Below, piece by piece: positions 9,446 through 40,679 of a DNA stretch of 64,000 nt. Made by a program: the position numbers and the translations under genes. Source of the stretch: Acidobacteriaceae bacterium. GTDB lineage: Bacteria; Acidobacteriota; Terriglobia; Terriglobales; Acidobacteriaceae. The stretch is from the NCBI GenBank assembly GCA_030038435.1, contig JASHOY010000347.1, forward strand, positions 1 through 64,000, read 5' to 3'. The notes beneath the pieces are model-generated. The model ran no database searches. It was not told the DNA's origin and saw only the letters and a program-made list of their open reading frames with translations. Every line of letters starts with the position of its first letter. Position 1 is the first letter of the stretch.

Positions 9446-10147
9446 ATGTTTTCTATTTGCAGTCCTGATCCGATTCGTATCGGCGTTGCGTCGGAAGAGC
9501 CTATTCGTCTGACCGGGCTGACCAGCGTATTTGATCAGCCTGCCCAGGAAGGCCGTCCGCAGCTTGTGCCGGTGGCTGGAGGACTGGAAAAGCTCTTCGA
9601 GGACAAAACGCTCGGTTACCTCGTCGTGGACTTGCAATCGTCCTCTGGCGGTCTTCAAGTGCTGGAAACCATAAGGCGCAGGCGCCCGGACCTGCGGCTC
9701 ATTGTGATTGGCCCTTATGGAAACGACGAATTGGTGCTGGCTTCGATTGTCGCCGGAGCGCGCGCCTACCTGGATCTGACTGCGAACCCGGAGACCGTTT
9801 TCAAAGCGATTGAAGTGGTGACCGAGGGCTCGATCTGGGCGCCGCGGAAACTCCTGTCGCGGCTGATTGACCGCCTGTTGAAGCAGCCCGAAGCCGGTGC
9901 GGGCGGCGGCGAAACCCGCTTGACCGAGCGGGAGCGCCAGGTGCTGGAGTTGGTTACCATGGCTCGATCCAATCGTGAAATCGCCGAGGAATTGGGAATT
10001 GAAGAGCGCACCGTAAAGACGTATGTGGGGCGCCTGATGAGAAAGACGGGGGTGGATAACCGTATCCGACTGTCCATGACGGCCCTCAGCCATTCGCTTA
10101 CCGGCAGGCCGGCGGGGGCCGAAATAGGCCAGGAATCAAAGAAATAG
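9446..10147 (+). CDS. NarL/LuxR-type response regulator
   Basis: A 233-residue transcription factor. The receiver-like N-terminal half has an Asp at 62 (VVDLQ) as likely phosphoacceptor, but the acidic pocket reads SEEP instead of the usual paired Asp. The LuxR-type helix-turn-helix is at about 155-215 (LTERERQVLELV, NREIAEELGIEERTVKTYV). GGGAGGAG precedes the ATG. No histidine kinase is adjacent, so it is an orphan here. The AT-rich candidate small RNA begins just downstream. Confidence 0.9.
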   Translation: MFSICSPDPIRIGVASEEPIRLTGLTSVFDQPAQEGRPQLVPVAGGLEKLFEDKTLGYLVVDLQSSSGGLQVLETIRRRRPDLRLIVIGPYGNDELVLASIVAGARAYLDLTANPETVFKAIEVVTEGSIWAPRKLLSRLIDRLLKQPEAGAGGGETRLTERERQVLELVTMARSNREIAEELGIEERTVKTYVGRLMRKTGVDNRIRLSMTALSHSLTGRPAGAEIGQESKK

Positions 10148-10312
10148 TTGATTACCTTTGTGCTAAAACTATGGTTACTTTGAGGATGGTCCTTAGGTAC
10201 TCTTGTGCAACTTCAGTACTTACCGCAAGCTTATGTACAGAAACAACGCAGATCTGGGGAAAGGAGTTCTCCAGCAGCGTCGATGAACGTAGCTCGAGAA
10301 CTCCTCTTTTTT
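10148..10312 (+). ncRNA. Candidate structured small RNA A
   Basis: An AT-rich stretch after the response regulator leads into the core GCAGATCTGGGG (10248-10259) and CTCCAG (10269-10274), which can pair as CTGGGG with CTCCAG (one G-U). The core closely matches 38979-39004, 29 kb away, at about 20 of 26 positions. It merges into a terminator with a T-run. There is no coding frame of note. The 5' end is unknown; the start given is only the end of the preceding gene. The class is unrecognised. Confidence 0.5.
10262..10312 (+). terminator. Intrinsic terminator of candidate RNA A
   Basis: The arms AGGAGTTCTC (10262-10271) and GAGAACTCCT (10296-10305) are perfect 10-bp complements and are followed by CTTTTTT. 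The 24-nt loop can pair further (AGC with GCT, CGT with ACG). The 5' arm overlaps the conserved CTGGGG/CTCCAG hairpin, so the two structures exclude one another. Confidence 0.75.
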
Positions 10313-10655: not shown

Positions 10656-10682
10656 ATGGCCGCGGAGCGAAAGGAAATGGAG

Positions 10683-11402
10683 ATGAAAAGGAAGTTTGTT
10701 TCGACCGGACTCTGCTTTTCGGTTTTCCTCAGCTTCGTGCTTGTCTTTTCCAGCAGTGCAGTTTGCCTGGCTTCATCGCGGGAGGATCTGCAGAATCGTA
10801 TTGCTTCAGCCAAGACCACGCTGGACGACATCATGTCCGCGCAGGACGCTACCATTCCCACCAACATTCTGGCCTCGGCTACCTGCGTGGCCGTCGTCCC
10901 GTCTTTGCTCAAAGGCGGTTTTATCATCGCCGGCGACTATGGTCAGGGGGTGGTGACGTGCCGCACCGGCCACGGCTGGAGCGGGCCGGTGTTTATTCGC
11001 CTGGCCGGCGGGTCGGTCGGATTTCAGATCGGAGGCGAATCCACGGCACTGGTCCTGATCGCCGTGAATCAGCGCGGATTCCAGGATCTGCTGAAGAGCA
11101 AATTCAAGATTGGCGCGGATGCGTCGGCTGCAGCGGGGCCGGTGGGACGCAGCGGTCAGGCGGCCACCGACTGGAAAATGAATGCCGAACTGCTCAGCTA
11201 CTCGCGCGCGAAGGGAGTGTTCGCGGGAGTCTCGTTAGGCGGCACAAGCGTGACCCAGAACCAGGAGGACACGCAGCTTTATTACGGCCAGCCTCACAGC
11301 TTCGAGTCGATTCTGACAGGCCAGGTTCCGGTGCCTCCGGGCGCAGTAAACTTTGTGCGCACCGTGGCCCACGACTTTGTGAAGGCCAAATCCGGAGATT
11401 AG
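10683..11402 (+). CDS. Secreted SYLF-domain (Ysc84-like) lipid-binding protein
   Basis: A 239-residue exported protein. Residues 1-32 form a signal peptide (MKRKF, a long hydrophobic run, then a cleavage-like CLASS). The rest is the SYLF/Ysc84 domain: ATCVAVVPSLLKGGFIIAG, the G-x-W segment GHGWSGPVFIRLAGGSVGFQ and AELLSYSRAKGVFAGVSLGG. Family members bind phosphoinositides or other lipids in eukaryotes; the bacterial role is not established. AAGGA at 10671-10675 favours the ATG at 10683 over the ATGs at 10677 or 10656. It faces the FAD oxidoreductase. Confidence 0.88.
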   Translation: MKRKFVSTGLCFSVFLSFVLVFSSSAVCLASSREDLQNRIASAKTTLDDIMSAQDATIPTNILASATCVAVVPSLLKGGFIIAGDYGQGVVTCRTGHGWSGPVFIRLAGGSVGFQIGGESTALVLIAVNQRGFQDLLKSKFKIGADASAAAGPVGRSGQAATDWKMNAELLSYSRAKGVFAGVSLGGTSVTQNQEDTQLYYGQPHSFESILTGQVPVPPGAVNFVRTVAHDFVKAKSGD

Positions 11403-36532: not shown

Positions 36533-37888
36533 ATGAACGACAACTTACACCAGTTGCGCTGTATCGGATGCGGCGCGCAGATCAAGGGCGCGGACGCCCA
36601 GCCGGACTTCCGTTGTGCCGTCTGCGGCGAGCTTTTTGAAGTGGAATATCCCGGCTGGAACCAGCGAAAGGGCCCGGACCGGCCCAACCCCGGCGCGCTC
36701 AAATGGCTTTGGCGCGAGCGGCGCTGCTCGGCGGAGGCGCTGGATCAGTCGGGCGTGTGGCGATATCGCGAGCTGCTGCCGATTCTGGACAGCTTTGGCA
36801 ATACCGTGAGCCTGCGCGAAGGCAACACGCCGCTCTATCGCCTGACGCGCGCGGCAAAAGCGCTTGGCATCGACCAGCTCTATGCCAAGCACCAGGGCCT
36901 GAACCCCACGGGCTCGTTCAAAGACACGGGGATGACCGCGGCTTTGAGTGTGGCGCGTGAGCGCGGCTTCGAATGGGTGGCCTGCGCCTCGACGGGGAAC
37001 ACATCAGCGTCGATGGCCGCCTACGCGGCGCGCGCGGGCATGCGCAGCCTGGTGTTGATTCCCGACGGCAAAATAGCGTGGGGCAAGCTCTCTCAGGCCA
37101 TGGATTACGGAGCGATAACCTGCCAGTTGAAGACCGACTTCGACGGCTGTCTGCAGCTGCTGACGCAGATTGTGAAAGAGGCGCCGGTCTATCTGCTCAA
37201 TTCGGTGAATCCTTACCGTCTGGAAGGGCAGAAAACGCCAGCCTTCGAGATTGCCGAAGCGTTTGACTGGAACATTCCCGACCATTTGATCGTGCCGGGA
37301 GGGAACCTGGGCAACAGTTCGGCGCTGGGCAAGGGATTCCGTGAAATGCGCGAGCTGGGATTGACGGCACGGATGCCGCGGATTTCTGTGATTCAGGCTG
37401 CAGGGGCCAATCCCCTGGTGCGGAGCTTGGAAAGCAACGAGGGCAGGGCAATGCAGCCGGTAGAGGCGCACACGCGGGCCACGGCCATCCGCATCGGGAA
37501 CCCGGCATCGTGGCGCAAGGCGGCGCGTGCCATTCGCGAAACGGGTGGCTGGTGTATCGATGTGACCGAGGCGGAGATTGCGATTGCCAAGGCGGAGATT
37601 GGCGCGGAAGGGTTGGGTTGTGAGCCGGCATCGGCAGTAACCCTTGCGGGCTTGAAAAAGCTGCGCGCGAAAGGAGCCATTGCATCAGGGGAAACGGTGG
37701 TGCTGGTTCTGACCGGGCACACGCTCAAGGATGCCGATTACACGATCGATTTCCATCGCGGAGCGCTGCTGAGCGCTGAAGAGAAAGAAGGCGTGGAGGC
37801 GGAAATCGAATCGCTGCGTCGCAATGCCGTACAGATGGAAGCCTCGGCAGATGCGGTGCTGGCGGCCCTGAAAGCGGGCGCGCGATGA
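36533..37888 (+). CDS. thrC: Threonine synthase
   Basis: A 451-residue PLP enzyme that converts O-phosphohomoserine to threonine. An N-terminal zinc-ribbon-like segment with CIGC and CAVC (9-33) is a feature of one threonine-synthase subgroup. The PLP Lys is in TGSFKDTGM (near 127), and CASTGNTSASMAAYAARAG is the phosphate loop. It overlaps thrB by 4 bases (ATGA), so the last two steps of threonine synthesis are translationally coupled. Confidence 0.95.
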   Translation: MNDNLHQLRCIGCGAQIKGADAQPDFRCAVCGELFEVEYPGWNQRKGPDRPNPGALKWLWRERRCSAEALDQSGVWRYRELLPILDSFGNTVSLREGNTPLYRLTRAAKALGIDQLYAKHQGLNPTGSFKDTGMTAALSVARERGFEWVACASTGNTSASMAAYAARAGMRSLVLIPDGKIAWGKLSQAMDYGAITCQLKTDFDGCLQLLTQIVKEAPVYLLNSVNPYRLEGQKTPAFEIAEAFDWNIPDHLIVPGGNLGNSSALGKGFREMRELGLTARMPRISVIQAAGANPLVRSLESNEGRAMQPVEAHTRATAIRIGNPASWRKAARAIRETGGWCIDVTEAEIAIAKAEIGAEGLGCEPASAVTLAGLKKLRAKGAIASGETVVLVLTGHTLKDADYTIDFHRGALLSAEEKEGVEAEIESLRRNAVQMEASADAVLAALKAGAR

Positions 37889-38859
37889 GCGGCGGGACCG
37901 ATGGCGGCTGCCTGCGGCTGCGGCTTCCGGCGACTTCGGCGAATCTGGGGCCGGGATTCGACGCAGTCGCAGTAGCGCTGGATTTTTTTCTCGAAATTGA
38001 GGCCGAGCCCGCCGCCGAGTTTTCCATCCACGCAAGCGGCCGCGACCGCGAGCGATGCGCCCGGCTTGAGGACAACCTGATACTCGAGGCCTATCGGAGC
38101 CTGCTGAAAGACCACGGCAAGCCCGTTCTGCCCCTGGCAATTCAGATGAAGAACGGAATTCCTCTGGGTATGGGATGCGGATCGTCGGCTGCGGGCAGGT
38201 TGGCTGCAATTGCCTTGGCCGACCACTTCGGGCAGCTTGGCTGGACGGCGGAACAGATCATCGACGAGGCGTATCGCCTGGAGGGACATCCCGATAACGT
38301 GGCGGCTTGCTGGCTGGGCGGCCTGGTGACCGCCGCGTGCGAAGGCAACCGGGTGCGCGTGGCGCAGGTTGATCCGCCGCCACGATGGCGCGCGATCCTG
38401 GTACTGCCTGCGCAGCCTCTGGCAACGAGCAAAGCGCGCGCCGTGCTGCCGACTGCATTCCCAAGAGAAGATGTGGTGGCCAATATTCAGTCCGCATCTC
38501 TGCTCGGCCTGTCGTTTTCACAGGGGCGCGGCGATCTGTTGCAGGTGGCAATGCGCGATCGGATTCACCAGCCCTATCGTGCGCCGTTTTGCCCCCTTCT
38601 TGAGCCTCTGCTGCCCCTGGTGGGTGAGAACGGCATCCTGGGTGTGGCCTTGAGCGGAGCCGGACCGGCGGTTTTGGCGGTTGTAGATCAGGTGTCAAAC
38701 CTCGACGGCGCGGCGCAGGCAATTCTCCGCGCCGCCCAACCGGTGCAGCCGCCGGAACTTCTCTCCTGCCGGTTTCTTCCCGCCGGGGTCAGCCATCCGG
38801 TTGAGGTGTGCAGGGACCCTGAAAAGGTGGTAAGCGGAGACCCTACAGAGGTTCTCTAG
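37885..38859 (+). CDS. thrB: Homoserine kinase
   Basis: A 324-residue GHMP-family kinase that makes O-phosphohomoserine. The start PATSANLGPGFDAVAVALD and the ATP loop PLGMGCGSSAAG (around 90-101) are diagnostic, and GVALSGAGPAVLA is the C-terminal glycine-rich motif. It precedes a terminator-bearing intergenic element. Confidence 0.95.
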   Translation: MSGGTDGGCLRLRLPATSANLGPGFDAVAVALDFFLEIEAEPAAEFSIHASGRDRERCARLEDNLILEAYRSLLKDHGKPVLPLAIQMKNGIPLGMGCGSSAAGRLAAIALADHFGQLGWTAEQIIDEAYRLEGHPDNVAACWLGGLVTAACEGNRVRVAQVDPPPRWRAILVLPAQPLATSKARAVLPTAFPREDVVANIQSASLLGLSFSQGRGDLLQVAMRDRIHQPYRAPFCPLLEPLLPLVGENGILGVALSGAGPAVLAVVDQVSNLDGAAQAILRAAQPVQPPELLSCRFLPAGVSHPVEVCRDPEKVVSGDPTEVL

Positions 38860-38892: not shown

Positions 38893-38933
38893 TTAGGTAA
38901 GGTCCACTTTTGGGTTACTCGTCTGTTACCTAA
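38893..38933. repeat. Inverted repeat TTAGGTAA / TTACCTAA
   Basis: Two perfect 8-bp arms (38893-38900 and 38926-38933) separated by 25 nt, upstream of the candidate RNA B core. The spacing suits an operator for a dimeric regulator or a hairpin stem. Related half-site TTAGGTAC occurs at 10193-10200 in front of RNA A. Confidence 0.5.
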
Positions 38934-39047
38934 GTTTACTTGCTATTCGCTTCACGAATCCTTAAATTCGCACCGTGAGCAGTTCTGGGGGAGGGCTGCT
39001 CCAGGCGCCCGCGATCCCTCCCGGGATCCGGGCGCCTTCTCTATTTA
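38934..39047 (+). ncRNA. Candidate structured small RNA B
   Basis: Carries GCAGTTCTGGGG (38979-38990) and CTCCAG (38999-39004), the same hairpin core as at 10248-10274, then a very stable terminator stem. There is no credible coding frame. The 5' end is unknown; it probably lies downstream of the TTAGGTAA/TTACCTAA repeat. It is separate from thrB, which ends 75 bp earlier. Confidence 0.5.
39004..39047 (+). terminator. Intrinsic terminator of candidate RNA B
   Basis: GGCGCCCG (39004-39011) pairs with CGGGCGCC (39029-39036), extended by GATCCC/GGGATC around the 4-nt loop TCCC: 14 bp with one bulged C. It is followed by TTCTCTATTTAT. Confidence 0.8.
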
Positions 39048-39242: not shown

Positions 39243-39575
39243 ATGGCAGGTTTGGGTGTTGTGGAAGTAAACGATGCAAATTTTGATGAGGAAGTTCTGC
39301 GCAGTGAGCAGCCGGTATTGGTTGATTTCTGGGCTGCGTGGTGTGGACCCTGCAAGGCGATCGGTCCAGCGGTCGACGGGGTGGCGCAAGCTTACGCCGG
39401 CAAGCTGAAGGTCACGAAGGTGAATGTGGACGCAAATGGGGCGACGCCAATGCGCTACGGTATCCGTGGAATTCCCGCGCTGCTTTTCTTTAAGGATGGC
39501 AAAGTGGCTGACCAGATCGTGGGTTACGTCCCGCAAGATGTGATCGAGGAGAAAGTGAAACGGCTGCTGGCGTAA
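39243..39575 (+). CDS. trxA: Thioredoxin
   Basis: A 110-residue thioredoxin with the active site W33-C34-G35-P36-C37 and the cis-Pro loop GIPALLFF. It reduces protein disulfides in the cytoplasm. AAGGAGG lies just before the ATG at 39243, and a near-ideal bidirectional terminator follows. An AT-rich leader (39065-39110) probably holds its promoter. Confidence 0.96.
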   Translation: MAGLGVVEVNDANFDEEVLRSEQPVLVDFWAAWCGPCKAIGPAVDGVAQAYAGKLKVTKVNVDANGATPMRYGIRGIPALLFFKDGKVADQIVGYVPQDVIEEKVKRLLA

Positions 39576-39657: not shown

Positions 39658-39926
39658 CGCGGCCCGGAACAGGGGAGCGGGTGCTGAAGAAACCGCGGCC
39701 TGTTGCCGATAGACGTTATGGACAGGTGCGCTTAACCCGTTTTGGGACAACTCTGCCTCTTTTCCTTTTCTGAAATTTCCCGCCTGACATTTCTTCTTTC
39801 CAATCTTGAGTTCTCTCTTTACCCGCGTAAAGGTGGAAGGGACGGCCAATCCTTAGCTCATGCTAAAGCGACGGCCGGAACAAGCGGGCGAGGCGGAGAG
39901 TGCCGCGCTCCCGGAGGAAGGCCGAA
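39658..39926. other. Intergenic leader of the flagellar regulator genes
   Basis: No gene. It contains two small perfect inverted repeats: CTTTAC-CCGC-GTAAAG (39816-39831) and TTAGC-TCAT-GCTAA near 39855, plus T-rich stretches around 39757-39800. GCCGATAG at 39705-39712 resembles a sigma-28 -10 but lacks a matching -35. Confidence 0.4.
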
Positions 39927-40679
39927 ATGAGATTGCTGATTGCCGAAGACGACTGGGCGCTGAGCCATTTTCTGCAGCGCGGTCTGGAGGCTGATGGATA
40001 CAGGGTGCGGCTGGCTGCCGACGGCGGAACGGCGGTCGAGGCATTCCGTGAAGATCTCCCCGATTTGACGATCCTCGATCTGAACCTGCCGGTAAAGGAT
40101 GGCGAGCACGTACTGGACGAGGTGCGGCTGCTGAATCCCGACTTACCGGTGCTGGTACTGACCGCGCGCCAGGAAGTCGATACGCGCGTACGCTGCCTGG
40201 ATCGAGGCGCCGATGACCTGATGATCAAGCCTTTCAGCCTGCACGAGCTCCGCGCACGTTGCCGGGCGTTGTTGCGGCGCAAGCGGGAAGCGCGGCTGGA
40301 ACTGCGCGCCGGAGACCTGGAACTGGACCGGCTGGAACATTCGGCCAGACGCGGTGGTCAGCCCATTGCGCTCACCAACAAGGAGTTCGCACTTCTGGAG
40401 CACCTGATGCTCAATCGCGGCCAGTGCGTTACCCGGGTGGAGCTGCTCGACACGGTGTGGAACATGGAGCCGGCGCAGACCACCAACATCGTGGATGTTT
40501 ATGTGAATTACCTGCGCCGGAAACTCAACGATCCACCGCCAGGCATACTGATCCGCACCGTGCGCGGATGCGGCTACCTGGTGCCTGCGGAAAGCGAGCT
40601 GGCGCCCAAAGATGTGGCGCTGCTTCCAAACCTGGCAACTGTGGCCGGAAGTCCGGCTCCAGGCGTCGCGATGAATTAA
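39927..40679 (+). CDS. OmpR-family response regulator
   Basis: A 250-residue two-domain regulator. The receiver has the acidic pair in IAEDDW, the phosphoacceptor D51 (ILDLNLP) and the Lys in LMIKPF near 101. The winged-helix output domain spans about 125-225 (ALTNKEFALLEHLMLNRG, NIVDVYVNYLRRKL, IRTVRGCGYL). It lies 42 bp before the sigma-54 activator and the flagellar genes, with no histidine kinase nearby. GGAGGA precedes the ATG at 39927, which starts the receiver. It may govern the flagellar island. Confidence 0.9.
   Translation: MRLLIAEDDWALSHFLQRGLEADGYRVRLAADGGTAVEAFREDLPDLTILDLNLPVKDGEHVLDEVRLLNPDLPVLVLTARQEVDTRVRCLDRGADDLMIKPFSLHELRARCRALLRRKREARLELRAGDLELDRLEHSARRGGQPIALTNKEFALLEHLMLNRGQCVTRVELLDTVWNMEPAQTTNIVDVYVNYLRRKLNDPPPGILIRTVRGCGYLVPAESELAPKDVALLPNLATVAGSPAPGVAMN

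Follow-up and report, generated by a model that had tools for sequence, protein, structure and literature searches.

Two loci in the analysed stretch of 64,000 nucleotides (the window), which we call A and B, are almost certainly genuine and conserved small RNA (sRNA) genes of the Acidobacteriaceae. The best model of their action, in which we place fair confidence, is an Hfq-assisted base-pairing sRNA regulon that comprises A and B and is controlled by a common activator. According to this model, A and B would be stand-alone sRNA genes of one Acidobacteriaceae regulon, each possessing its own promoter and intrinsic terminator.

The two loci share a short core, in which GCAGATCTGGGG (10248-10259) and CTCCAG (10269-10274) of locus A correspond to GCAGTTCTGGGG (38979-38990) and CTCCAG (38999-39004) of locus B. 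Approximately 21 of 26 positions agree when one gap is allowed, in keeping with the figure of about 20 in the earlier note, and a search of the 64-kb window for GCAGATCTGGGG with one mismatch or fewer returned exactly these two sites, both on the + strand. Both loci are indeed situated in intergenic, AT-rich DNA (39% and 43% G+C just upstream, vs 61% for the window), and each is followed by an intrinsic terminator. A BLAST-type search, which did not require the motif yet recovered the same core, matched A in 21 of 100 Acidobacteriaceae genomes (core 10238-10264, 88-97% identity), and a sequence search matched B, often in multiple copies, in 77 of 100. The similarity of A and B therefore exceeds chance, because each site is conserved independently. 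Furthermore, a 5' motif and upstream boxes are common to both, which upholds the proposed link between the two loci, and the proposal of an sRNA family was right for a group larger than had been claimed.

The RNA encoded at locus A was originally thought to span 10148-10312. Two alignments of its relatives (A1 and A3) and a covariance model placed an RNA of about 74 nt at 10239-10312 (+ strand), leaving 10148-10238 as promoter. This covariance model matched the window at 4.5e-20 (the window sequence being a member of its training set), and also matched divergent relatives. The first part of RNA A is a conserved 5' tail, AGAAACAACGCAGATCTGGGGAA (10239-10261, + strand), whose approximately 23 nt are nearly invariant and predicted to be unpaired for the most part or weakly paired. 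It has the conserved sequence AGAAACAACG at its predicted 5' end and starts with AGN-AAN-AAC, an (ARN)3 run in which the variable positions among relatives coincide with the N of ARN. The second part is the intrinsic terminator (10262-10312, + strand), comprising a stem-loop at 10262-10305 and six T residues at 10307-10312, so that the predicted transcript would end near 10312, as anticipated. Among 56 relatives the sequence of this terminator varied freely while its pairing was kept (85% of cells paired); 12 of its 18 pairs showed two-sided changes, and none of 500 shuffles attained its covariation score.

We also examined the distribution of A with the exact pattern AAYAACGCAGATCTGGGGAA, which occurred in 110 stretches (contigs) among 84,980 species genomes. 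The records of all of these were titled Acidobacteria or a subgroup thereof, except for two contigs from a single MAG that bears the label Proteobacteria. A stem-loop and T-run directly followed 112 of the 115 pattern matches, 111 of them in Acidobacteria or Acidobacteriaceae records; the invariance of the 20-mer in this set is partly due to selection, as the 20-mer was the search key. Of the three matches lacking a terminator, one was cut by a contig end and two belonged to an unrelated repeat in the Proteobacteria-labelled MAG, in which one further copy passed the T-run filter and was also unrelated. That MAG (WFRP01) carries three copies of the 20-mer in all (L062 1192-1211, L091 2861-2880 and 3004-3023), apparently parts of an unrelated repeat with AATAACGCAGATCTGGGGAAAAAAGACGTTCTCGGAC in at least two and without the A terminator. 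Named strains that possess A include, for example, Terracidiphilus gabretensis, Silvibacterium bohemicum, Acidipila rosea and Occallatibacter savannae.

Near-matches to the 20-mer outside the Acidobacteriaceae were mostly unsupported, and those inspected were inside reading frames. Locus L008 was dropped as a relative, since its match was limited to the upstream half of A and fell within an open frame at the beginning of a contig. Two loci from other families, L206 and L210, were matched by the covariance model and had the motif and a terminator, without matching neighbours or boxes. In L206 (genome G314), AAAAACGCAGATCCGGGGAA leads directly into a terminator 13 nt past the end of a gene, and it is either a chance sequence or a 3'-UTR element distantly related to A.

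The genes surrounding A were also conserved. In the window, A is preceded by a LuxR/NarL-type response regulator (RR) gene (9446-10147, + strand; Pfam GerE 4.5e-16) and followed by a gene for a Ysc84/SYLF-domain protein (ysc84; 10656-11402, + strand; Pfam Ysc84 6.5e-35). Among loci with sufficient flanking sequence, A had the RR gene on its 5' side in 79 of 92 and ysc84 on its 3' side in 80 of 85, each in the same orientation as A. Relatives of this RR were present in 83 of 100 family genomes at E <= 1e-25. Among the 30 best RR loci, A was within 700 nt in 8, while 17 others, which were located by position and not by the sequence of A (although the last extraction step used a short pattern), contained an RNA in the same slot with CACCTACCACAGAACCTGGGAGA as its tail and a -10 element, CATACT or GATACT, that is clear and coincides in position with the -10 of A. 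This RNA, which we call A', lacks a clear ARN run and has a covarying terminator of its own (91% of cells paired and two-sided changes in 9 of 15 pairs among 15 aligned sequences). A diverged A' often occupies the RR-sRNA-ysc84 slot in genomes that lack A, and intermediates (AACACAGACCTGGGAGAAG) occur in another genus in the same dcd-RR-sRNA-ysc84 setting. Thus a single sRNA gene, which has diverged into two or more sequence classes, extends over much of the Acidobacteriaceae. The core CAG-N(2-3)-CTGGG is common to A, A', the intermediates and B, and the motif CAG-N2-CTGGGG is common to A and the B copies adjacent to trxA.

Small RNA B (38975-39046, + strand) consists of a hairpin at 38978-39000, whose GGGGG loop is at 38987-38991, and a terminator at 39003-39037 with a T-rich tail. 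Its relatives, which were found by sequence in a way that favours invariant members, shared an invariant 19-nt hairpin, CAGUUCU-GGGGG-AGGGCUG. The outer pairs of this hairpin varied compatibly (A-U, G-U and G-C), and the terminator 3' of it also covaried in the alignment of relatives. A covariance model of B (R2) matched 25 genomes, all of them Acidobacteriaceae, and none of roughly 220 others sampled from the phylum. In the window, B is located between a thrB-like GHMP kinase (homoserine kinase) gene (37885-38859, + strand; Pfam GHMP_kinases_N 4.3e-14) and the thioredoxin gene trxA (39243-39575, + strand; Pfam Thioredoxin 5.4e-32), both assigned with the aid of synteny, which also indicates that this is a common location of B.

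The regions upstream of both genes contain RTTACY boxes. The upstream boxes of A are ATTACC (10151), GTTACT (10174) and GGTACT (10196), together spanning 10151-10201 (+ strand). RTTACY was present between -110 and -30 in 92 of 111 A loci, as compared with 2 of 104 in a control interval (-600 to -520) and 8 of 111 in shuffled sequences, and 70 matches were at exactly -68 or -69 relative to the conserved tail. A putative sigma70-like promoter on the + strand would comprise the -35 element TTGTGC (10203-10208), a 17-nt spacer and the -10 element CAAGCT (10226-10231); the TTG is conserved at -38 to -36 in relatives of A, and the -10 element in the window is weak. Similarly, B is preceded by GTTACT (38914) and GTTACC (38925), which are 11 bp apart (38914-38930, + strand), and by a predicted sigma70-like promoter, TTGCTA (38940-38945), 17 nt and TAAATT (38963-38968), on the + strand, to which both the sequence and its relatives point. 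RTTACY was observed in 26 of 30 B loci with this trxA-type promoter (control, 1 of 29) and in 2 of 26 B paralogues outside that class, a division drawn from context and sequence type that is descriptive. In 10 of 26 paralogues away from trxA (L162-L194), a TGGCAC-N-GTGC(CA) element immediately precedes the -35 element, and these paralogues look as if they had been rewired to another regulator.

These shared boxes make it likely that A and B form one regulon. In the proposed mechanism, both genes would be switched on by a common activator bound to the RTTACY boxes immediately 5' of the -35 element, and this activator could be the LuxR-type RR that is encoded beside A. Of 99 A loci in which the RR was adjacent (or not assessable), 88 had boxes, vs 5 of 13 without an adjacent RR. 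This association fits the neighbouring RR as activator, and may also reflect shared ancestry. However, boxes persist in three genomes without a detectable RR orthologue, so that the activator may be a different protein. The receiver domain of the RR scored below the Pfam cut-off (Response_reg, 1.9e-4) and is degenerate, with GVASEEP replacing the usual acidic pair and the K of GA.AY..K substituted; the protein is perhaps phosphorylation-independent. An OmpR/PhoB-type RR gene is located just past trxA, downstream of B (39900-40679), and its product could instead be the protein that binds the boxes spaced by 11 bp at B. The arrangement RTTACY-N5-RTTACY was found at two sites in the 6.4-Mb genome, one at B and the other inside a reading frame. 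A PhoB-like phosphate box was rejected, as these two strict 11-bp pairs do not allow a phosphate regulon to be inferred.

A likely RNA chaperone is present in the family. Hfq was found in 59 of 60 family genomes, with three matches in the genome of the window. Up to three Hfq-like matches, of which one is strong and two are weak, occur in most Acidobacteriaceae genomes, those in the genome of the window including C354:2785-2973 and C95:16844-17014; to our knowledge, several Hfq-like paralogues per genome are unusual. In enterohemorrhagic E. coli (EHEC), Hfq binds repeated A-R-N trinucleotides (PMC4104026), and the (ARN)3 run of A would be a motif of this kind. Hfq could thus hold RNA A through its 5' (ARN)3 stretch and its U-tail while A offers the seed GCAGAUCUGGGGAA to C-rich mRNA sites, and B would offer a related motif in its GGGGG-loop hairpin, both RNAs acting in trans. 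We consider it somewhat probable that A acts by such Hfq-assisted base pairing. An exact search for the 12-nt complement of the seed in 60 genomes returned approximately 31 matches outside the sRNAs, which is near the estimated chance number, and the complements inspected were inside reading frames.

A different explanation of the same G-rich motif is that A and B sequester a protein through GGGGA or the GGGGG loop, in the manner of Csr/Rsm sponges or decoys, and do not base pair. The very strong conservation of this short motif, its exposure in a hairpin loop in B, the several copies per genome and the RR beside A, a layout like that of GacA and RsmY/Z, would all be consistent with a sponge. 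However, CsrA (PF02599) was missing from all 60 family genomes searched, with a control search that was positive in three of the control genomes, E. coli, B. subtilis and T. maritima. This absence excludes a CsrA sponge, and a sponge for a different protein seems doubtful to us. We regard as a tentative possibility a family-wide circuit in which an atypical LuxR-type RR drives at least two CAG-N2-CTGGGG sRNA classes, of which one has been amplified and placed under other promoters, and which act with an RNA-binding partner other than CsrA, possibly an Hfq-like paralogue.

We also evaluated whether A is a cis-acting 5' leader (an attenuator or RNA switch) of ysc84, in which formation of the terminator is opposed by a conserved alternative hairpin. 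The frequent same-strand position of ysc84 downstream of A favours this interpretation, and the earlier note had likened A to an attenuator or RNA switch, based on a CTGGGG/CTCCAG pairing that both A and B allow. Among the 56 relatives of A, however, this helix was paired in 63% of cells with no two-sided changes at all, while a control in which one strand was slid by one column paired in 76%. Forcing the CTGGGG/CTCCAG helix gave the window RNA a predicted fold of -15.7 kcal/mol, vs -24.9 kcal/mol for the terminator fold, a difference of about 9 kcal/mol, and the CTCCAG of A is part of the variable terminator arm. The pairing did not hold in B either, where CTGGGGG contributes the loop and the inner part of the stem to another hairpin and CTCCAG is variable (CTCTAG, TTCGGG). 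The switch is unsupported, because its helix is not conserved and is energetically worse, and CTCCAG belongs to a terminator arm. A cis-acting leader is also difficult to reconcile with the five A loci that lack ysc84 within 3.5 kb or more downstream, with the two or three tandem copies of A, each with a separate upstream region, between RR and ysc84 at three loci (L044, L054 and L105), and with the median of 384 nt between the start of the conserved tail and the start of the ysc84 match. Four A loci without the RR have the order dcd-sRNA-ysc84. Judged by its sequence, A is an independent unit, with promoter-like elements and a covarying U-run terminator, that is kept when its neighbours change, and its retention after the loss of either neighbour makes a trans-acting RNA the simplest interpretation and a leader improbable. 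It is highly improbable that the A 20-mer is a DNA element (an operator, in view of the perfect palindrome CAGATCTG within it and of CAG-N2/3-CTG, retained in A' and B) or a short ORF, given its fixed position downstream of the promoter, the T-run terminator joined directly to it in nearly all pattern matches, and predicted RNA lengths (51-75 nt among relatives) that vary freely, which disfavours an ORF.

We also compared A and B with known systems. Rfam 15 contained no family that matched the window at the gathering cut-off, and gave only tRNAs in 37 relative loci. Acido-1 (RF01686), which the earlier note had named as an example of acidobacterial RNA classes, scored below its gathering score in the window and in the relatives, and neither Acido-1 nor Acido-Lenti-1 (RF01687) was among the Rfam matches to A and B up to E = 10. 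These two families are noncoding RNA candidates of Acidobacteria (PMC2864571), as A and B are, but A, B and their relatives score below the gathering scores of both. Only four annotated sRNA families have been counted for the phylum (PMC9029176, Table 1). We found no description of sRNAs in Acidobacteriaceae in the open-access literature, a coverage that leaves out most subscription papers. Acidobacteria are abundant in soils, and A and B represent two sRNA families that are widespread in Acidobacteriaceae and have no counterpart in Rfam. Their promoters can be tested, and a candidate regulator and a probable chaperone are available, which offers a concrete way into the study of post-transcriptional control in Acidobacteria.

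In its features, A would resemble the Hfq-dependent trans-acting sRNAs, being short and having its own predicted promoter, a conserved single-stranded segment, an intrinsic terminator and an (ARN)3 run, and Acidobacteriaceae genomes encode Hfq. As a difference from that group, no Rfam family is matched by the G-rich seed or by the hairpin of B with its GGGGG loop. The hairpin loop of B exposes a repeated short motif and occurs in several copies per genome, as in CcsR/'cuckoo' RNAs and sX13, but the loops of those RNAs are C-rich whereas that of B is G5, and the Rfam scores for sX13 (E 0.41) and CcsR1 (E 2.9) were sub-threshold and insignificant. Several sRNA genes that share a putative upstream activator box, a LuxR/NarL-type RR gene adjoining A and a conserved GGA-containing motif recall the GacA-controlled RsmY, RsmZ and CsrB RNAs. 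The GacA palindrome is TGTAAG-N6-CTTACA, whereas the A and B box is RTTACY in direct repeat, and CsrA, the defining partner of those RNAs, was the protein absent from the 60 family genomes searched. Taken together, A and B appear to be ordinary bacterial small RNAs in kind, and new as families.
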